A stretch of DNA of 10,463 nt from an uncultured euryarchaeote (GTDB lineage Archaea > Thermoplasmatota > Poseidoniia > Poseidoniales > Poseidoniaceae). The position numbers were made by a program, and so were the translations under genes. This document shows positions 110-10,463 of this stretch, piece after piece. The stretch lies in the NCBI GenBank assembly GCA_937892665.1, contig CALBJF010000060.1, forward strand, positions 1 to 10,463, given 5' to 3'. Below the pieces are notes generated by a model, which had not been told where the DNA came from, ran no database searches, and saw only the letters and a list, made by a program, of their open reading frames with translations. Position 1 is the first letter of the stretch. Each line of letters begins with the position of its first letter.

Positions 110-757
110 ATGGTAGTAAAGAGCGCAACAAAAAAGCGGTTAATTGAACTCGGAGTCTCCGATGAATACGCCCACAAATTGGCTACGGACAGAAATATGG
201 CCGACATTAAGGCCATGCCTGCTGACGACGTCGCAAAGATTCTCGGAATCGCAAAAGATAGCGAATCCTTCACCAAAGTTATGCAAATTATTGCCGAGCA
301 AGGGAACCGCCGTTCCCGTAACAAGCGAAGCAAGAAAATCACCATTTCCTCCAAAGCCATCGACGAGTTCGATCGTCCTGAGGCAACCAGTCGTTTCAAC
401 CCACTGAACCATGAACTGGTTCCTCATCAGGAACTTCTTGGTGAGGCCAACATCAGCGAACAAGAGCAATACGATTTGGAAAAAGAAGAACTTCTTCCTT
501 GGGGACTTGAAGAACTCGATGAAGACGGAGACCCACGTCTTGCAAAGGAACTTCTCCCGAAAGTTCTGATCTCAGACCCTGTTGTTCAAGCCATCAAAGA
601 GGCTTGTGAAATTCTCGACAATGCAACACTTGCTGCAAATCCTGAACACCGCCCACTCGCAGCGGGTTGGATTGCAGACCGTGTTCTGAAAGTAAAGAGA
701 CATTCCAAATCTGCTGGTACAGCTGTTGCTTACCGGCTTATTGTGGAGGGCAGCTGA
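110..757 (+). CDS. rpoH: RNA polymerase subunit H (Rpb5 C-terminal homologue) with an extra N-terminal domain
   Basis: The 215-residue product contains the archaeal RpoH fold (counterpart of the eukaryotic Rpb5 C-terminal domain), which assembles on the largest subunit at the lower jaw. The core starts near F96 (FNPLNHELVPH) and continues through ISDPVVQAI (154-162) and KSAGTAVAYRLIVE (200-213), all recognisable RpoH motifs. Archaeal RpoH is normally about 75-85 residues; this one is far longer. Two short insertions sit in the core: an acidic one around 113-146 and one around 163-186. A separate N-terminal extension (1-95) has a helical part (1-64), a basic stretch (R67-K76) and a linker. Residues 1-44 are clearly homologous to the start of A'' in this operon (23 of 44 identical) and look helix-hairpin-helix-like, which is my inference. 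The start at 110 is supported by the SD and by the exact MVVKSATKK match to the A'' start. Only 16 bases separate it from rpoB. Confidence 0.94.
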   Translation: MVVKSATKKRLIELGVSDEYAHKLATDRNMADIKAMPADDVAKILGIAKDSESFTKVMQIIAEQGNRRSRNKRSKKITISSKAIDEFDRPEATSRFNPLNHELVPHQELLGEANISEQEQYDLEKEELLPWGLEELDEDGDPRLAKELLPKVLISDPVVQAIKEACEILDNATLAANPEHRPLAAGWIADRVLKVKRHSKSAGTAVAYRLIVEGS

Positions 758-761
758 GGCT

Positions 762-770
762 GGAGTTGAT
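762..770 (+). promoter_or_regulatory. Ribosome binding site of rpoB
   Basis: GGAGTTGAT matches the archaeal consensus GGAGGTGAT at eight of nine positions and ends three bases before the ATG at 774. It decides the start: the same frame is open upstream to a TTG at 726, but that would overlap rpoH and add residues without RpoB character. Confidence 0.75.
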
Positions 771-773
771 ATT

Positions 774-3700
774 ATGCAAGAAATTATTGAATCATTTTTC
801 AAAGAACGAAGCCTAGTAAACCACCAACTTGCTTCTTACAACGACTGTATCCCATCCACGGTCAACCAACTCTCTCGAATGGAGAAAATCATTCGTAACA
901 TCCGCGTCGGAACTGACGAGGAAATCATCGATGATCTCGGTGGCTACATCAAACTCGACGTAGCTGACCAAGAAATCGTCATTCGCTTGAAGGACATCAA
1001 ACTCGGCGCCCCAAATATTCGTGAAGCTAACGGTTCTTACCACCATGCTTCTCCTATGGAATGCAGACTTCGTAAGTTGACCTATCAATCCCCGGTCAGC
1101 ATCGATTTCACAATCTATCGAAACGGTGTGGCCTCCTTCCCAGAAGAAGGTGTACAAGTCGGTTCAATTCCGATTATGGTTCGTTCACAACGTTGTCACC
1201 TCCACCCAAGCCATATTGCTGACGGCCGTACACTTGAGCCGACGAAATCAAGCGAAGATTCTGCTCTTCTTGCAGAACTCCTTCGCTCTCGTGGCGAAGA
1301 CCCACTTGACCCAGGAGGCTACTTCATTATCAACGGTACAGAGCGTGTCCTCATCTCTATGGAAGATCTCGCACCAAACAGAGTAACTGTTGAGATTAAC
1401 AAGCGTACTGCAAAGCGTACTGAAGTCGCTAAGATTTTCTCTCAGAGAAACGGTATGCGCAAACCACTCACTGTCGAAAAGCGACGTGATGGTATGCTCA
1501 TGGTGAAAGTAAGTACTGCTGGTACAACCCCTATTCCAGTCGTTCTCCTCATGAGAGCGCTTGGAATTGAAAACGACCAAGAAGTATTCACTGCTATTTC
1601 AGGACCTCAAGAGACATTCAAGTACATCGTTGCAAACATCAACGAAGTTAACGGTGATGAGAAGCAAGAAGGCGATTACGACGTTAAGAGTACCAACGAA
1701 GCATATGAATGGCTGCAAAAGAAATTCGCTGCTGGACAACAAAAGGAATACCGTGAAGCACGAGTAAACCAACTCCTTGACAGAGAACTCCTCCCCCACC
1801 TTGGTGATCAAACAGAAGACCGAAAGAAGAAGGCTATCTTCCTCGGAAGAATTGTTCGTCAAGTTCTCGAAATGGCACTCAACGACAAGGAACCAAACGA
1901 CAAGGATCACTACGCAAACAAGCGTGTTCGACTCGCAGGTGACCTTATCGAAGATTTGTTCCGTGTTTCATCTGGACAACTTGCTCGTGACTTGAAGTAT
2001 CAACTCGAGCGTCATCATAACCGTAAGAGAGAACTCAAGATTACATCCTGTCTACGACCGGATGTTTTGTCATCAAAGATTCTCCACGCACTTGCGACTG
2101 GAAACTGGGTCGGAGGACGATCTGGCGTAAGCCAACTTCTCGACAGAACAACATACCTTGCTTCCCTATCTCACATGAGAAGAGTCACCTCTCCTCTTGT
2201 TCGAAGCCAACCTCACTTCGAAGCTCGTGACCTTCACCCTACTCAATGGGGACGATTGTGTCCAAACGAGACCCCTGAAGGGCAGAACTGTGGTCTTGTA
2301 AAGAACGCAGCTCAAATGATTGACGTCTCAGAAGAAGTCGACCCGCATGAAGTACGCGAACGTCTTGATGAGCTTGATGTATACCAACCTGATGACTGGA
2401 CTGATGGTGATAGAGTTCACGTCAACGGTGACATCTATGGTATGCACAAGAAGGGTAAGAACCTCGTTAATCACTTCAAAAACGCTCGTCGTCGTGGAAC
2501 CATTCCTGCAGAAGTTTCCATTCGCCACGATCTTGAAAATCGAGACATCTTTATCAACACAGACAAAGGACGAATTCTCCGTCCATTGCTCGTATTGTAT
2601 GACGGTACACCTCGTCTTGAAAATCATCACCTTGTCGATCTCGCTGCAGGTAACATTATCTTCAAAGATCTCGTCAATGATGGTATCGTCGAGTGGGTAG
2701 ATGCTGAGGAAGAAGAAGACCTCTATATCGCTCCACGACCGTTCGTTCTTCCTGAAACTGTACCGGAAGGGAAATTCTCTGGCCGCCCAGTAACTCACGA
2801 GAAGATTCGATGGGTCAACCTCGGAGAACCAGGGGAATCTCATGCTATTCTCGAAGCAGAAGTTCGAATGCCAAATGGTTCGATTGAAGTCGCTAAGTTG
2901 GAAGTTCCGCTCTTGTTTGGAGCAGAACACACACACGTCGAAATCGACCCACAATTGGTTCTCGGTGTTTGCGCATCTCTTATCCCGTACCCAGAACACA
3001 ACTCAACTCCTCGTGTTACTGGTGGTACTGCAATGGTCAAGCAATCACTTGGTCTGCCAAGCGCAAACTATCGTCTGCGCCCAGACACACGTGCTCACAT
3101 CTTGCACTACTCTCATCGCTCAATCGTCCGTACTGCCGCTATGAAGACCACAAACTTCGATGAGCGACCTGGTGGTCAGAACTTCATTGTTGCAATTATG
3201 TCTCTACACGGTTACAACATGCAAGACGCTGTCATCATGAACCGTGCATCAGTCGATCGTGGCCTCGGACGTTCAACCTTCAACCGAACCTACAACGCAG
3301 AACGCCGCCGATTCCCAGGTGGTCAAGTTGAAGAGATTGAAAAGCCTGGAAACAAGCTTACTGAAGTCAAGGGATTGAAGCCTGCTGAAGCATATGCTCA
3401 TCTCGAAGATGACGGATTGCCTCTTCCTGAAACATACTTAGAAGGCGGAAACGTCCTCGTTGGAAAGACAAGTCCGCCTCGATTCCTGGAAGAATCGAAC
3501 AGCGGGGCATTCCTCATGGCTCAAGAACGTCGAGAATCCTCGATGCTTGTTCGTCACGGTGAGAAGGGCTGGGTCGACAACGTATATGTCACAGAATCAG
3601 ACAACTCTGGTCGTCTCGTTCGTGTTATGGTTCGAAGCCACAAGATTCCTGAAGTTGGAGACAAATTCGCTTCACGTCACGGACAGAAGGGTGTTATCGG

Positions 3701-4394
3701 CAGACTCGTAGAGCCTGAAGATATGCCATTCACACAAGACGGTGTTGTTCCTGATTTGATTATCAACCCTCACGCTATTCCATCCCGTATGACAGTAGCA
3801 CACGTTCTGGAAATGATCGGTGGTAAAGTCGGTGCTATGGAAGGACGTCGTATTGATGGTACTGCATTCCGTGGAGAAAAGGAAAGCAGCCTACGTGATG
3901 GACTTGTCCGAAATGGACTTGCTCACACAGGCCGTGAAATCATGGTTAACGGCGAAACTGGAGAATCATACCCTGCTGATATTTTCGTTGGATGTATCTA
4001 CTATCAGAGACTCCACCATCTCGTCAGTTCCAAGATTCACGCCCGTTCCCGTGGACGTGTTCAAATTCTTACCCGTCAACCAACAGAAGGCCGTGCCCGT
4101 CAAGGTGGTCTTCGATTTGGTGAGATGGAGCGTGACTGTCTGATTGCACACGGTGCTTCAATGGTCATCAAGGACCGTCTGCTCGATGAGTCTGACGGAA
4201 TTGACATGTTTGTATGTGCTCAATCTGGGCACATTGCATGGTACGATCCAAAACGCCGAACCTACGTCAGTCCAGTTCATGGAGATGGTGCGGAAGTCTA
4301 CAAGGTACAGACTTCCTATGCATTCAAGCTCTTGCTGGATGAGATGAAGAGTCTCGGGGTTGCTATGCGACTAGAACTGGAGGACCGAAGATGA
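774..4394 (+). CDS. rpoB: DNA-directed RNA polymerase subunit B (unsplit)
   Basis: This is the second-largest catalytic subunit (Rpb2/beta homologue), 1206 residues, slightly longer than usual for an unsplit archaeal B. Visible landmarks are GYFIINGTERVLISMEDLAPNR in the N-terminal third; the fork-loop region RDLHPTQWGRLCPNETPEG from R485; GYNMQDAVIMN from G813; the active-site lysine block DKFASRHGQKG from D963 (K964, K972); and the C-terminal SYAFKLLLDEM clamp-anchor segment. Four oddities stand out. Q817 replaces the Glu of the usual ED pair. Q504 replaces the Pro of the nearly universal PEGPN. About 64 residues (654-717) are inserted between the EEEEDLYIA and HTHVEI motifs. The C-terminal zinc ribbon, normally CXXC...CXXC, reads C1148-A-Q-S1151 and S1166-P-V-H1169, so it probably does not bind zinc in the usual way. 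The gene ends in an ATGA overlap with rpoA1. Confidence 0.98.
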   Translation: MQEIIESFFKERSLVNHQLASYNDCIPSTVNQLSRMEKIIRNIRVGTDEEIIDDLGGYIKLDVADQEIVIRLKDIKLGAPNIREANGSYHHASPMECRLRKLTYQSPVSIDFTIYRNGVASFPEEGVQVGSIPIMVRSQRCHLHPSHIADGRTLEPTKSSEDSALLAELLRSRGEDPLDPGGYFIINGTERVLISMEDLAPNRVTVEINKRTAKRTEVAKIFSQRNGMRKPLTVEKRRDGMLMVKVSTAGTTPIPVVLLMRALGIENDQEVFTAISGPQETFKYIVANINEVNGDEKQEGDYDVKSTNEAYEWLQKKFAAGQQKEYREARVNQLLDRELLPHLGDQTEDRKKKAIFLGRIVRQVLEMALNDKEPNDKDHYANKRVRLAGDLIEDLFRVSSGQLARDLKYQLERHHNRKRELKITSCLRPDVLSSKILHALATGNWVGGRSGVSQLLDRTTYLASLSHMRRVTSPLVRSQPHFEARDLHPTQWGRLCPNETPEGQNCGLVKNAAQMIDVSEEVDPHEVRERLDELDVYQPDDWTDGDRVHVNGDIYGMHKKGKNLVNHFKNARRRGTIPAEVSIRHDLENRDIFINTDKGRILRPLLVLYDGTPRLENHHLVDLAAGNIIFKDLVNDGIVEWVDAEEEEDLYIAPRPFVLPETVPEGKFSGRPVTHEKIRWVNLGEPGESHAILEAEVRMPNGSIEVAKLEVPLLFGAEHTHVEIDPQLVLGVCASLIPYPEHNSTPRVTGGTAMVKQSLGLPSANYRLRPDTRAHILHYSHRSIVRTAAMKTTNFDERPGGQNFIVAIMSLHGYNMQDAVIMNRASVDRGLGRSTFNRTYNAERRRFPGGQVEEIEKPGNKLTEVKGLKPAEAYAHLEDDGLPLPETYLEGGNVLVGKTSPPRFLEESNSGAFLMAQERRESSMLVRHGEKGWVDNVYVTESDNSGRLVRVMVRSHKIPEVGDKFASRHGQKGVIGRLVEPEDMPFTQDGVVPDLIINPHAIPSRMTVAHVLEMIGGKVGAMEGRRIDGTAFRGEKESSLRDGLVRNGLAHTGREIMVNGETGESYPADIFVGCIYYQRLHHLVSSKIHARSRGRVQILTRQPTEGRARQGGLRFGEMERDCLIAHGASMVIKDRLLDESDGIDMFVCAQSGHIAWYDPKRRTYVSPVHGDGAEVYKVQTSYAFKLLLDEMKSLGVAMRLELEDRR
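4379..4384 (+). promoter_or_regulatory. Ribosome binding site of rpoA1, inside the end of rpoB
   Basis: GGAGGA lies six bases before the ATG at 4391, within the last rpoB codons. Together with the ATGA overlap this points to coupled translation of B and A'. Confidence 0.8.
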
Positions 4395-7300
4395 GCCGAA
4401 GAACGACACTAATCCCAAAGCGAATCGCACAGATTCGTTTCAGCCTGATGGACCCGAGTGAAATCCGTAAGATGTCATCTGTCGAAGTTAAGACTCCTGA
4501 CACCTACAAGGATGATGGACGCCCATACAATCAAGGATTAATGGACTCTCACATGGGAGTTATTGAACCCGGTTTGGTTTGTCCAACTGACAACTGTAAG
4601 TACGACGAATCACCCGGTCACTTTGGACACATCCAACTTGAACTTCCGGTTATTCACATCGGTTTCGTAAACCTCATTAAGACAGCACTGAAGTCAACAT
4701 GTAACTCTTGCAGTAACGTTCTGCTTCACTCTGCAAAGGAAACACACCCTTCCAACCCAGAACTTTCTGAACAGGATTACTACCGATCACGTATCCGTGA
4801 TATCATCACCAAACACGGTGTTGGTTCAACAGAATTTTCAAGCATCATTAAGGAAGTCGAAAAGATTGCATCTGCAAAGAACCGACGTACCTGTATGCAC
4901 TGTGGAGCTCTCCAAGGAGAAATCCGTCTTGACAAGCCAACGACATTCAAGGAGAAGACCGAGAATGCAACTACTGGTGGAAAAGAGACTGAGAGAAAGA
5001 TGAATCCTCGTGACGTTCGTGAATGGTTAGCAAGTATTCCTCCGGAACACTTGATTTTCATGGGAATGGACAAGCAAAATCGTCCTGAGTGGACTGTTTT
5101 GAAGGTTCTACCAGTTCCTCCAATCACCGTTCGACCATCGATTACACTAGACAGTGGAGATCGTTCAGAAGACGACTTGACACACAAGTTGGTTGACGTC
5201 CTACGTATCAACCAACGTCTGCAAGAGAATCGTGACTCTGGTGCACCTCAATTGATTGTTGAAGATCTTTGGGAACTTCTACAATACCACGTTACGACCT
5301 ACTTCGATAACCAAACATCTGGAATCCCTCCAGCACGTCATCGATCTGGCCGTACATTGAAGACTCTGACACAACGACTCAAGGGTAAGGAAGGACGATT
5401 CCGTTCTAACCTATCCGGTAAGCGTGTTAACTTCTGTGCTCGTTCAGTTATCTCTCCTGACCCTTATCTTGGAATCAATGAAGTTGGTGTCCCTAAGAAG
5501 GTTGCAAAGGAATTGACTGTACCTATTCGCGTTACTCTACGTAATCGAGAACAAATGCGACAGATGATTCTCCGTGGACCTGATATTCATCCTGGTGTCA
5601 ACTACATTGTTCGTGGAGACGGCCGACGTGTCCGAATCAATGCTCGAAGCCGTTTGATTAACGCAGGTTTCCGATGCCATAATCCTGAATGCCACTCTGG
5701 GGATTCTCTCAAGAGCCAACCATATCCTGGTCTACGTCATGATCTTAACGAAGTTCTCTTCGCTCCAAACTTCCTACCAGGTTTGGTTATCCGTGAAATT
5801 CAGAATCTTGAAGGAAGCGGTCTAGATGATTTGACGTACTTGGTTGATGATGAAGCTACTCTTCGAAACCTTCGTGGTGAAGACGCTCACGGTCACCCAT
5901 TGCCTGAAGACGATCCTCGTGCAGTTCTCCATCATCGCTGGTTGCATGAACTTGGTCAAGCAGACAAACTTGACCCTGAGCCACTCCCAGCGCATCTTGA
6001 AGTTCGTTGCCCTCACTGTGGCAGTCCTGCTGATGAATACGATATGCCAACACCTATCGAAGACCGACTCTCAACTGTTGACGTACGTGGCAATCCAAAG
6101 CCAGGTATGCAAGTAGAACGCCACCTTATCGATGGTGACGTTGCAATCTTCAACCGACAACCATCTCTTCACAGAATGTCGATGATGGTTCACGAAGTTC
6201 GTGTAATGGAAGGGAAAACATTCCGATTTAACTTGGCTGTGTGTACACCTTACAACGCAGATTTCGACGGTGATGAGATGAATCTTCACGTTATTCAATC
6301 TGAAGAAGCTCGTGCGGAAGCTAAGATTCTGATGAGAGTGCAAGAACACATCCTCACGCCTCGTTACGGTGGAGCAGTTATCGGTGGTATTCACGATCAC
6401 ATTTCTGGTGCTTATCTCCTATCACGCCCTGGAACAACTGTTCTCAAGTCCCATGGTCTTGAAATGCTCGGAAGTATCGACTATACTGGCCAACTACCTG
6501 AAATCGTCAAAAATGAGGATGGGAAAGATTCATTCAGAGGTCACGACATAATCTCACTGATTATTCCAGACAACATCAACCTGCACTTCATGTCTAGAAG
6601 CCGCGACGAAGTTCACGTCCGCAACGGTAACGTAACGGGAACACTTGACAAGCGTGCAATTGGTGCTGAAGATGGTCGCTTGTTGGACGCTATTGTGCAA
6701 ACAAATGGTTCCGAAAAGGGAGCGCAATTCCTAAACGAATTCACACGACTCTCCATTGCTGCTTGTACTTCTCTTGGATTTACAACTGGTATTGATGACG
6801 AAGATTTGACCGCTGAAGCTCTTGATGCTATTCACGCAGCGAACGCTGAAGCTGGCGAACTTGTTAACAAAGAACTTGCACACTTCGAATCTGCCAAGGG
6901 AGATCCTCGAAAGTACGAACCTCGTGCTGGCCGAACAATGCGTGAAACTCTTGAAGAGAACATCATGGTCATGCTCGATGAAGGAAAGCAAGCTGCTGGT
7001 GACGTTGCTAAGAATGAATTGAACCAATCTGGTTCAACCAACGCTGCTGTAAACATGGCAATCTCTGGTGCTCGTGGTTCAATGGATAACCTGAACATGA
7101 TGGCTGGTTCAATTGGACAAGCAAAGGTTCGTGGAAAGCGTCTAGAACGTGGATATGACGACCGTGTTCTTCCTCACTTCAAGCGTGGAGGACGTGGAGC
7201 AGAAGACCGTGGATTCATCTCCGGTTCTTTCAAGCGTGGTCTTGAACCAACAGAGTTCTTTATGCTCTCTGTCTCTGGAAGAGAATCTCTGGTCGATACA

Positions 7301-7627
7301 GCGGTTCGTACTTCTAAGTCTGGTTACATGCAACGCCGATTAATCAACGCAATGGATGACCTCAAGGTCTTCAACGATGATATGCTCTCCGTCCGAAACA
7401 CAGCAAATCGAATTATCCAATTCTCCTATGGTGAAGATGGAATTGACCCAAGCCGTGGTGTTCACGGATCTGCTTTCAACATCGATGTTATTATCGATGG
7501 TGCTCTTGGTACTGACGGAACAACAGTTGTTACTCGTGAAAGTCTAGAGCGCGAAGAACGTGAAGAAGATCTTGGTGCATGGGACGATGAGTCAACCGAG
7601 GTCGATTACGATGGAGGTGAGAACTGA
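4391..7627 (+). CDS. rpoA1: DNA-directed RNA polymerase subunit A' (N-terminal part of the largest subunit)
   Basis: This catalytic subunit (Rpb1/beta' N-terminal portion) has 1078 residues against roughly 870-970 in most archaea. The absolutely conserved NADFDGD Mg-binding motif is at 622-628 (D624, D626, D628). The clamp zinc pair CNSC (104-107) and CMHC (168-171) is intact. The more N-terminal site reads C64-PTDN-C69 ... S74-PGHFGH, so the usual third Cys before PGHFGH is Ser. [19 protein letters not shown] marks the switch/clamp-core region. Residues about 417-571 are an insertion between [15 protein letters not shown] and [11 protein letters not shown], with C429/C434 and C540/C543. The bridge helix (about 955-975) reads [18 protein letters not shown] instead of the usual EFFFHAMGGREGLVDTAV. 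The protein ends at the normal A'/A'' split with an acidic tail (1050-1078). It overlaps rpoB by four bases and rpoA2 by one. Confidence 0.98.
7613..7620 (+). promoter_or_regulatory. Perfect Shine-Dalgarno site of rpoA2, inside rpoA1
   Basis: GGAGGTGA is a full match to the archaeal Shine-Dalgarno core, six bases before the ATG at 7627. It also encodes part of the G-G-E near the end of A'. With the TGATG stop/start junction it suggests that A' and A'' are made by coupled re-initiation, which would suit two halves of one subunit needed in equal amounts. Confidence 0.85.
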
Positions 7628-9192
7628 TGGTCGTTAAGAGTGCAACCAAGAAGAAGCTCATGGATTTGGGTATTGCAGAAAACTTCGCTCACACGCTAGC
7701 AAACGACCGAAAGTGGGATGACGTCAAGATTCTCACTGCTCAAGAAATTGCTCAAATCTGTGAAACTGATTCAGAAACATCAGCCACAATTCGTGGAACT
7801 ATTGATGGAGCCATGAAGAAGAACCGTGCAACTGGTTCTGAAGCAACTGGTCCAGTAACTCAAGTTCGTAAGATGCGAGCAAGAGGAACTCGAACTCGTT
7901 CTCGTGCAAAGACAGCAGTTGATCTCGATGTTTACAACGTTGAGAAGAAACTTCGTTCTTTTGATGATATTCTTGCAGATGACAAGGTCTTCCAAGCTCT
8001 TCATGCAGCTGTAGATGACATGGATACAAACCGCTTCAGCGGCAAAATCATTCACGACATGACGCTTGCAATTCACAAGCGTGGACTCAAGAAATTGACA
8101 AAGAAGCAAGCTGCTGCCGTTATCAACGATGCATTCAATGCTCTGGATAAAGCCAGTATTGATCCATTCGAAGCAGCAGGAATTATCACTGCCCAATCCA
8201 TTGGAGAACCAGGGACACAGATGACCATGCGTACGTTCCACTATGCGGGTGTTGCGACTGTCAACGTCACACAAGGTCTGCCTCGTATCATTGAGATTGT
8301 CGATGCACGTAAGGTACCAAGTACACCTACAATGATCATTCGTCTTATGCCTGACAAGAATTCTCCTGAAGAAGCACAGAAACTTGCAGCTTCTCTCGAG
8401 ATTACAACTACTGCCAACATCGCTCAAATCGAGACTGACGTTGCTCAACGACGACTTGTTCTCAAATTGAACAAAGGAAACCTCAAGCAAAAGAACATGA
8501 CTGGAATGGAAGTTAAGGACAAACTAGAGAGAGCACTTCGCCTCTATGTACAAGCTGATAAGGAAAAGAATCCAGGTACACTTACCATTATCCCTGGTGT
8601 TCACAACGAAGAAGATCTTGCTGAATTGCAGGATAATCCTCCTTCCTACACCATGCTTCTACAACTTGAAGAAAAGATTCGTGACATGCGTCTGAAAGGT
8701 ATCCCAAGCATCGAGCGTGCAAACGTGCAATACGATGACAAAGCTGCTGAGTACTACCTCTCGACCATTGGTTCAAATCTATCACGAGTGAGCGAAATTG
8801 AATCGATTGATCGTTCTCGTACCTACACGAACAATATTATCGAGATTTTCAATTACCTCGGTATTGAATCTGCTCGTCAAGCAATCATCAACGAACTTGA
8901 GGCAACTCTGCTCAGTGCTCGTCTTGAAGTCGACGTTCGCCACCTTCTCATGGTTGCAGACGTCATGACCTCTGAAGGTGAAGTACGTGCGATTGGCCGA
9001 CACGGTGTTTCAGGAACCAAGCACAGTATTCTTGCTCGTGCTGCTTTCGAAGTTACTGTAAACCACTTGCTTAAGGCAGGTATCATCGGTGAAACAGACC
9101 GTCTTACCGGTGTTGCAGAGAACATTATTGTTGGACAACCAATTTCCCTGGGAACAGGCAGTGTTGAGTTGTTCTATATCCCTGAAGAATGA
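7627..9192 (+). CDS. rpoA2: DNA-directed RNA polymerase subunit A'' (C-terminal part of the largest subunit) with an extra N-terminal domain
   Basis: The 521-residue product is the C-terminal part of the Rpb1 homologue, which completes the active centre (trigger loop), cleft and jaw. The trigger-loop region is canonical: [17 protein letters not shown] followed by [22 protein letters not shown], with M199 and H205 as markers. Further landmarks are [17 protein letters not shown] and, near the C-terminus, [20 protein letters not shown] and [14 protein letters not shown]. Archaeal A'' is usually about 380-400 residues. The excess is mainly N-terminal: residues 1-63 are a helical domain homologous to the RpoH N-terminus here, 64-95 are a very basic linker (for example [16 protein letters not shown]), and the recognisable A'' core begins near D99. 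The start at 7627 is fixed by a perfect SD and by the identical MVVKSATKK of RpoH. The gene is the last polymerase subunit of the operon, followed after 42 bases by rpl30e. Confidence 0.97.
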
Positions 9193-9588: not shown

Positions 9589-10463
9589 ATGCGCACGCAT
9601 CTTAATGCAGCAACAGCCTTACTTTTGACAGCCCTGATGCTGACATCGCTTCTTGCAATACCCCAACCAGTTCCTGTTGAAGTGCTAGCAGAAGAAGATT
9701 TGAGTTTCAATGAACCTCTGCTTACTTCTGGTCGCTCCTCAAGTACTTCCATTCTAGCTGCTGGTAGTGGTGCCAATAGCGAATTTGGTGATCATATCGA
9801 AGCTCTCCCTAATGGTGGATGGGTTGTTGGTTCCGAATTCAACTCAACTCTAACTTATGGGACGAAAACACTTGCACCGACTTCCCCTTATCGCCAAAAT
9901 AATGGGATTGGGGAGTTCTTCCTTGGTATCATGAATGATCAAGGTGTTTGGTCAAATCTTGTAGGTGCAGACCATAATTATGGAAGTGGTGGTCTTTCAT
10001 TCATTACGGATATCACCGTCGGAATGGCAGGGGAAATTTTCGTATCCGGATACTTCTATGGAGAAATTGCCTTCGGAGCTCCTAATCCGAATACGATAAT
10101 CAGTAATACGAATTCTGGATTTCACGATGAAGGATTCATTGCCAAAGCCGACCCAATGGGTAACTGGATGTGGGCAAAAAGTTTCACAACGTTAGTCAAT
10201 GGAAGTGGCGAGAACAGTCGTACTACTGCTATGCAAGTCGATATGATGGGTGATCTTTTTGTTACTGGAACGTTCCAAGGAGAAACTGATTTTGGTGGTA
10301 TGAGTCTTAACGCCACAAGTCAAGACATCTATGTTGCAAAATATGATGGAAACCAAGCAACTCTAAGTTGGGTTATCTTTGGCGGAGGTATTGGTACAGA
10401 CAGCGTCTTCGATATGGCGATTACTCCATCAAATGGTGTCAAAATAGCAACTGCAACTACTAG
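9589..10463 (+). CDS. Secreted beta-propeller (SBBP-like) repeat protein, 3' end beyond the window
   Basis: The frame is open from ATG 9589 to the window edge (291 complete codons). An in-frame TAA at 9571 and no other start codon between fix this start; the RBS is weak (AAGGAC at 9572-9577, 11 bases away). Residues 1-24 look like a signal peptide: a short basic MRTH, then a hydrophobic run with ALLLTALMLTSLLAI. The rest is repeats of about 60-70 residues with the pattern (I/L)FV(S/T)G.F.GE..FG, then (F/Y)(I/V)AK.D, then W and a Gly-rich end. The clearest copies are about 140-200 and 213-265; a more diverged one is at about 64-126 and another begins near 270. This matches SBBP-type propeller repeats found in secreted proteins of bacteria and archaea. 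The molecular role is unknown; cell-surface or extracellular location is inferred. It does not belong functionally to the upstream operon. Confidence 0.82.
   Translation, partial: MRTHLNAATALLLTALMLTSLLAIPQPVPVEVLAEEDLSFNEPLLTSGRSSSTSILAAGSGANSEFGDHIEALPNGGWVVGSEFNSTLTYGTKTLAPTSPYRQNNGIGEFFLGIMNDQGVWSNLVGADHNYGSGGLSFITDITVGMAGEIFVSGYFYGEIAFGAPNPNTIISNTNSGFHDEGFIAKADPMGNWMWAKSFTTLVNGSGENSRTTAMQVDMMGDLFVTGTFQGETDFGGMSLNATSQDIYVAKYDGNQATLSWVIFGGGIGTDSVFDMAITPSNGVKIATATT

Follow-up and report, generated by a model that had tools for sequence, protein, structure and literature searches.

Copies of one small domain, predicted to be SAM-like, precede both RpoH and A'' in the RNA polymerase of Poseidoniales

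The C-terminal domain of the alpha subunit of bacterial RNA polymerase (alpha-CTD) is a small helix-hairpin-helix (HhH)-type domain attached to the polymerase by a flexible linker. Additions to the side of the enzyme that carries RpoH are described in PMC2675907: archaeal RpoH lacks the jaw of eukaryotic Rpb5, Rpo13 of Sulfolobales docks in the resulting groove near downstream DNA, and both jaw and Rpo13 are implicated in downstream DNA. The closest known counterparts of the domains reported here are HhH domains at the N-terminus of RNA polymerase subunit A'' in other families of the same phylum (for example in Methanomethylophilus, where the protein is annotated only as A''), with which they share the subunit, the N-terminal position, the kind of domain and a charged linker. 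The window analysed is a single contig (CALBJF010000060.1, 10,463 nucleotides) of a draft genome of an uncultured euryarchaeote of the order Poseidoniales, also called Marine Group II (1.73 Mb in 408 contigs, 83% complete). In this window, and in Poseidoniales in general, RpoH and A'' each start with a copy of one small domain that is followed by a basic linker. The copies in Poseidoniales differ from the other A'' domains in having a counterpart on RpoH and in having diverged to a pattern VKSxTKK...AHxLAxD. Searches of an open-access library, covering titles, openings of abstracts and passages, turned up no description of an HhH domain in either of these archaeal subunits; a paper on the evolution of archaeal Rpo6 and Rpo8 (PMC13257274) has its sole 'helix-hairpin-helix' among its references and makes no mention of 'Poseidon'.

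The gene of the Rpo5/Rpb5-type subunit, rpoH (positions 110–757, + strand, 215 residues), begins with the domain (residues 1–66, positions 110–307; its last helix extends to residue 71 in the full-length model), continues with a basic linker (residues 67–95, positions 308–394, net charge +6) and ends with the core, or Rpb5 assembly domain (positions 395–754). The core was assigned from the full-length model and from a match to the RpoH/Rpb5 C-terminal domain PF01191 at residues 144–211 (31.9 bits, cut-off 23.5); the match to NCBIfam NF007129 (42.8 bits) is below its cut-off of 83. The 521-residue A'' (rpoA2, positions 7627–9192, + strand) matches PF04998 with 169.9 bits (cut-off 28.5) and, from residue 140, TIGR02389 with 419.1 bits (cut-off 420.65). 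Its domain covers residues 1–62 (positions 7627–7812) and is assigned the same SAM-like/(HhH)2-type fold by similarity to the modelled RpoH copy, and its linker, by charge count, covers residues 63–110 (positions 7813–7956, net charge +10). An earlier note on this DNA had proposed one extra N-terminal domain on both subunits, which is confirmed; both proteins lie at the coordinates that it gave, and its end at 7926 falls inside the A'' linker. The D-S-E-S/T stretch that it put after the domain lies, in RpoH, just before the last helix and hence inside the domain.

The two N-termini align by BLASTP from residue 1 of both proteins with 31 of 80 positions identical (E 8e-13), which rules out chance similarity, and profile-profile comparison (hhalign) of the A'' copies with the RpoH copies gives a probability of 99.8%. 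Both begin with MVVKSATKK, and a recount agrees with the earlier note that five of the eight non-Met codons differ synonymously between the copies. Wrong start sites are ruled out for both genes. The ATG of A'' overlaps the A' stop codon (TGATG), and residue 1 is methionine in all 47 copies counted. The RpoH start codon lies at the same place in 49 of 50 loci (40 ATG, seven TTG, two GTG; the 50th locus is cut), so that this position varies only in the way expected of a start codon. A profile of 37 rows, A1, was built from the copies on both subunits in both families of the order, f1 and f2 (numbers are our own handles for families), with rows with non-ATG starts excluded. It contains 11 invariant columns; residue 30 is tryptophan in A'' and mostly methionine in RpoH. 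A search for further copies in the same genome, as the earlier note had suggested, returned these two with the RpoH domain as query (E≤1) and with A1 (E≤10), and a third, more distant copy on another protein with a model of the A'' domains of other families.

The domain is present throughout the order as sampled. Sixty genomes were searched, namely this one and 59 others drawn from its genus, family and order (f1 and f2, 20 genera in all). The RpoH query and the A'' query each have a match in 58 of them, a match to either gene being counted. Fifty loci of each gene were fetched, with some genomes represented twice. The domain heads 49 of the RpoH loci, the remaining one being cut by a contig end, and 47 of the A'' loci; a contig end cuts off one more A'' just before residue 3, and the remaining two are interrupted by a contig end or a stretch of N. 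A class-wide profile search matched 258 of 292 genomes. Among 14 f1 and f2 genomes without a match that were checked for A'' and B, 12 have neither; of the other two, one has an A'' that starts at residue 73 and the other a B that starts at residue 377. Since A'' or B is also missing or partial there, the absence of the domain fits missing sequence.

AlphaFold2 models the RpoH domain, from the 37 rows of both subunits, as five helices with a mean predicted local distance difference test score (pLDDT) of 85.4. The full-length RpoH model has a predicted template modelling score of 0.50 and consists of two rigid parts, residues 6–71 and about 104–215, with pLDDT 85–87 in the domain (residues 11–60) and 86–93 in the core (residues 111–210). 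The RpoH linker is predicted to be disordered, with block means of 46–52 over residues 71–100. A CusF-like match of this linker (NCBIfam, E 3.5e-4, 20.7 bits, cut-off 143) was taken as spurious; some such RpoH proteins (P0014 and P0045) are labelled as CusF copper proteins, likely a mislabel from a weak match of the linker, which in the window would correspond to positions 266–409 (residues 53–100). The domain is predicted to adopt a SAM-like, degenerate (HhH)2-type fold. Foldseek returned FANCM-FAAP24, NusA, RAD51, the SARM1 SAM domain and UvrC, all with E of 0.8 or worse, and the top rows of VIA-align were SAM domains (Z up to 7.6), NusA (6.9), FANCM (6.8), RAD51 (6.8) and XPF (6.3); families absent from these listings are not thereby excluded. 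The predicted five-helix arrangement is shared with the RadA/RAD51 N-terminal domain, the NusA C-terminal repeats, XPF/FANCM and topoisomerase V, to several of which the A'' domains of other families are related by sequence (see below), and the suggestion of a RadA N-terminal-like HhH fold is supported as a fold prediction. In contrast to these domains, the Poseidoniales copies have no GhG in the first hairpin (no glycine at the third position of residues 15–17 in any of 95 copies) and no significant match to Pfam HHH_5 (listed at E≤1 for one of 37 domains, best E 0.039). A1 has two matches in the PDB, to unrelated proteins with E of 1 and 2.2.

SAM domains mostly bind proteins, and their place in the first rows of VIA-align would suit a role as docking modules, in which each domain would engage another protein (a factor for transcription or for coupling, or protein Z described below) and the RpoH copy would provide a second site. 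The near-neutral charge of the domain and the missing GhG point the same way, and we consider docking a possible, though rather unlikely, explanation. The first Foldseek match, FANCM-FAAP24 (probability 0.95, but E 0.82), would instead fit a pairing of the two copies after the manner of the FANCM-FAAP24 or XPF-ERCC1 (HhH)2 heterodimers, by which RpoH would be stapled to A'' or DNA would be ringed. The copies do form a paralogous pair within one enzyme; elsewhere in the phylum A'' has the domain while RpoH does not, which argues that pairing was not the original role, and we hold this explanation to be improbable.

Both domains appear to be under strong purifying selection. The ratio of nonsynonymous to synonymous substitutions (dN/dS) was estimated by the Nei-Gojobori method from closely related genomes, and the values are rough since the stretches are short and mean dS is 0.34 to 1.34. 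For the A'' domain they are 0.003 (5/5 pairs) and 0.001 (8/8 pairs), compared with 0.029 and 0.025 for the A'' core, and for the RpoH domain 0.053 (16/16 pairs), compared with 0.051 for its core (13/16 usable). The view of the earlier note that selection holds the copies thus gains support. Neutral accretion without function would be in keeping with the great variability of A'' N-termini over the phylum, but with these ratios and the 11 invariant columns of A1 it is disfavoured for Poseidoniales and is very improbable. At larger distances (pairs with core identity below 85%), the A'' domain of the order has an identity of 0.70 versus 0.73 for the core, and exceeds it in 310 of 868 pairs; in A'' of f3, f5, f15, f27 and f29 the domain exceeds the core in none of 45 pairs. 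The A'' domain is therefore more tightly constrained in the order with the second copy. Among the close relatives the catalytic core of A'' is less conserved than the domain, as would be expected if the domain docks with an invariant partner, whereas a domain that nearly keeps pace with the core in this order and not in other families suits pairing as well. The RpoH domain has an identity of 0.57 at these distances, versus 0.63 for its core.

The most likely mechanism, to which we give a probability of about 0.45, is that the two tethered arms would grip nucleic acid, chiefly downstream duplex DNA, by means of their basic linkers and the invariant N-terminal VKSxTKK segment. Their job would be like that of the Rpb5 jaw, Rpo13 or alpha-CTD. 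Nucleic acid is favoured because the linkers are basic (mean net charge +6.9, range 4 to 9, for RpoH residues 67–81; +6.0, range -2 to 10, for A'' residues 61–115) and because the VKSxTKK segment is invariant. On its basic linker of about 30 residues, the N-terminal arm of RpoH could reach the Rpo13 groove near downstream DNA. The three likened systems differ from this one in several respects. Rpo13 is a separate helix-turn-helix subunit (PMC2675907), unlike a domain fused to RpoH or A'', and is likened by position and description only. RpoH has no match at E≤1 to the N-terminal Pfam family of Rpb5, in a search whose HMMER filters drop weak matches. Alpha-CTD (PF03118) is likewise a small HhH-type domain on a tether, but on different subunits; it is absent from the 25 families listed, out of 34, for the 37 domains of the order, and one tandem HhH region of an f13 A'' scores 7.1e-4 to it, below its cut-off.

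Several observations weigh against DNA-gripping arms of HhH type. Unlike the linkers, the domain carries no basic charge overall (net charge averaging -1.1 in RpoH and -1.9 in A''), and GhG is the motif that canonical HhH domains use to hold DNA; a near-neutral domain without it favours a protein or a partner domain as the ligand. The N-terminus of A'' lies between the bridge helix (A') and the trigger loop (A'') and is not demonstrably near the jaw. The fold assignment is affected too, as Foldseek gave the RpoH domain model no match at E 0.001 or better and all VIA-align Z values stay under 8, a range in which they may reflect no more than a common arrangement.

The N-termini of A'' and RpoH were also surveyed in other families of the phylum, which we take to be Thermoplasmatota. 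Of 80 genomes from other families, 79 had A''; it was collected from these with its upstream DNA, and likewise from five genomes of family f3, presumably Marine Group III, to give 84 loci. The A'' N-terminus is highly variable. In many A'' proteins the start resembles MAKKDTI.ALIKRGIS..A..L, with one HhH domain ahead of a charged linker. Canonical HhH repeats in tandem occur in f13, f4 and others (the two that were tested match HHH_5 with 5.8e-14 and, for f4, 4.2e-13), and some A'' proteins have no N-terminal addition. By eye, 13 loci of f14 have lysine-rich tails, f22 and f25 have another N-terminal domain with a start like MSSLLWKDTKANV, and f3 has an HhH domain, an unknown middle domain and a second HhH-like stretch. 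The A'' N-terminus is thus a hot spot of additions in the phylum (loci L190–L268 and L143–L147), including HhH domains, tandem repeats and lysine-rich tails. HhH additions were seen by eye on ribosomal proteins of other families as well, at the C-terminus of uS3 (L153, 879–1688) and the N-terminus of eL32 (L154, 1738–2391).

A hidden Markov model of 27 single-HhH A'' domains of other families, A4, matches 38 of the 84 A'' N-termini (27 of these being its own rows), in 16 of 31 families. The 15 families without a match are f4, f6, f7, f10, f12, f14, f18–f22, f25, f26, f28 and f32, of which f4, f19 and f21 nevertheless show HhH-like repeats by eye. In the PDB, A4 matches topoisomerase V (4.7e-20), NusA (1.3e-6), DNA ligase (1.2e-4) and RAD51 (1pzn, 4.6e-4); matches to IcmE/DotG (1.1e-12) and to BURRH repeats were taken as repeat artefacts. 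HHH_5 is listed for seven of the 27 rows (best 7.4e-6), and one f15 A'' is 100% identical in its N-terminal region to a Methanomethylophilus A''. RpoH is present in 73 of the 84 loci, the stretch reaching a contig end in the other 11, and with default filters neither A1 nor A4 has a match in any of the 73. In some of these the core could be preceded by as many as 56 residues if the frame is read from its first methionine. With the filters off, the A4 matches that were located in RpoH of these families (E up to 0.06) start after the start of the RpoH core. Ordinary RpoH, as far as sampled, therefore lacks such an extension, as the earlier note had stated, but ordinary A'' often has a related one. 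Of its proposed undescribed lineage-specific module, the RpoH copy is indeed restricted to the order in this sample; a lineage-specific A'' domain is ruled out by the scatter of HhH domains over the phylum.

Because the HhH domain of A'' is widespread in the phylum and the RpoH copy is specific to the order as sampled, it is most likely that RpoH received a later duplicate of the A'' domain. The A'' domain would predate the order, a duplication within the operon would have added a copy to the front of RpoH in the order's ancestor, and strong constraint would then have acted on the two copies. The domain may also have been lost and regained, or exchanged between RpoH and A''. The profiles A1 and A4 align by hhalign with a probability of 93.8% (E 1.8e-7, 56 columns, from residue 3 of one and residue 2 of the other). 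The direction of copying rests on the distribution, as searches with single profiles barely see the link, and for the A'' copy of the order the sequence link to the other A'' domains is weak.

Several comparisons speak against so simple a history. In separate hhalign runs, the RpoH copies reach 94.1% to A4 and the A'' copies 67.7%, and the tandem HhH repeats align with A4 at 95.2%, with the RpoH copies at 16% and with the A'' copies at 5%. In small sets at E<0.01, A4 finds 44 of 50 RpoH N-termini of the order and 11 of 50 A'' N-termini. When six Poseidoniales genomes are searched with it at E≤10, RpoH is matched in five (E 5e-5 to 0.02) and the A'' domain is never matched, and in the genome of the window a frame that reads as RadA scored 0.002. 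A search of the phylum with A1 gave eight weak matches outside the order (E 0.004–0.084); none of the seven read is A'', and no A'' of another family appears at E≤0.1 among them. Three of the seven contain HhH by eye (uS3, eL32 and a repeat protein), and four look like chance. In a tree of 69 columns, whose bootstrap had not settled, the domains of the order are separated from other A'' domains (99/97), the RpoH copies do not form a single clade, and A'' adjoins RpoH of f1 (95/90); this tree was not used for the direction of copying, which stayed undecided in a quick tree that included protein Z.

Protein Z itself, on which the order retains an A4-type domain separately from the polymerase, also complicates this history. 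It has 363 residues (C163:1877–2965 of the same genome, - strand), begins with the A4-type HhH domain and also has a zinc-ribbon-like part with four cysteines (Cys4), and its gene lies between open reading frames that resemble KsgA and ferredoxin by eye. It matches no Pfam family (best E 0.024). Protein Z is matched in 39 of 40 countable Poseidoniales genomes, in two only over residues 1–51, an occurrence that would suit a docking partner; in eight other genomes only its first 58–111 residues match, and four of these matches are A''. With the phylum-type MAKKDT domain kept on protein Z (hhalign to A4, 98.9%) and the A'' copy of the order so far from A4, the domains of the order could derive from another HhH protein and not from the old A'' domain, and then have been copied between the two subunits. 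We judge such an origin unlikely, and prefer the duplication of an old A'' domain.

A more elaborate proposal, which we regard as speculative and doubtful, is that the old A'' arm was copied to RpoH to give a matched pair of flexibly tethered HhH-type arms, which act together in initiation or elongation, by pairing or by both gripping downstream DNA, as an archaeal counterpart of the paired alpha-CTDs. The enzyme would also carry a cysteine-rich insertion in A' and might have an HhH zinc-ribbon-like partner that is specific to the order. The insertion was observed at A' residues 402–594 (positions 5594–6172, GVNYIVR to FNRQPSLH), where the order has about 135–145 extra residues with four to five cysteines (Cys 429, 434, 540 and 543 in the window). 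It is present in 21 of 21 f1 and f2 operons read (gap 177–187 residues) versus none of five in f3 (gap 44 residues), and looks like an inserted zinc-binding element.

The remainder of the window has the gene order partial tRNA-Lys-like gene, rpoH, rpoB, rpoA1, rpoA2, L30e gene and start of an open reading frame. The contig opens inside the tRNA-Lys-like gene (anticodon TTT, read by eye); ARAGORN found no tRNA in the window, presumably because this gene is cut by the contig end. Subunit B is encoded unsplit by rpoB (774–4394, + strand; NF006335, 1501 bits), and A' by rpoA1 (4391–7627, + strand; NF006336, 1139 bits), whose stop overlaps the start of A''. The final open reading frame (9589–10461) runs off the contig and has a signal-peptide-like start by eye and no Pfam family at E≤1.

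The subunits of archaeal RNA polymerase are usually treated as a fixed core, and here one accessory domain is found on two subunits of a marine order. The RpoH copy was seen only in this order, and HhH domains at the A'' N-terminus are themselves wider in the phylum. If the arms do bind DNA or factors, Poseidoniales would show, as a natural experiment, how regulatory arms are added to a polymerase, and the arms could be compared with alpha-CTD, the Rpb5 jaw and Rpo13.

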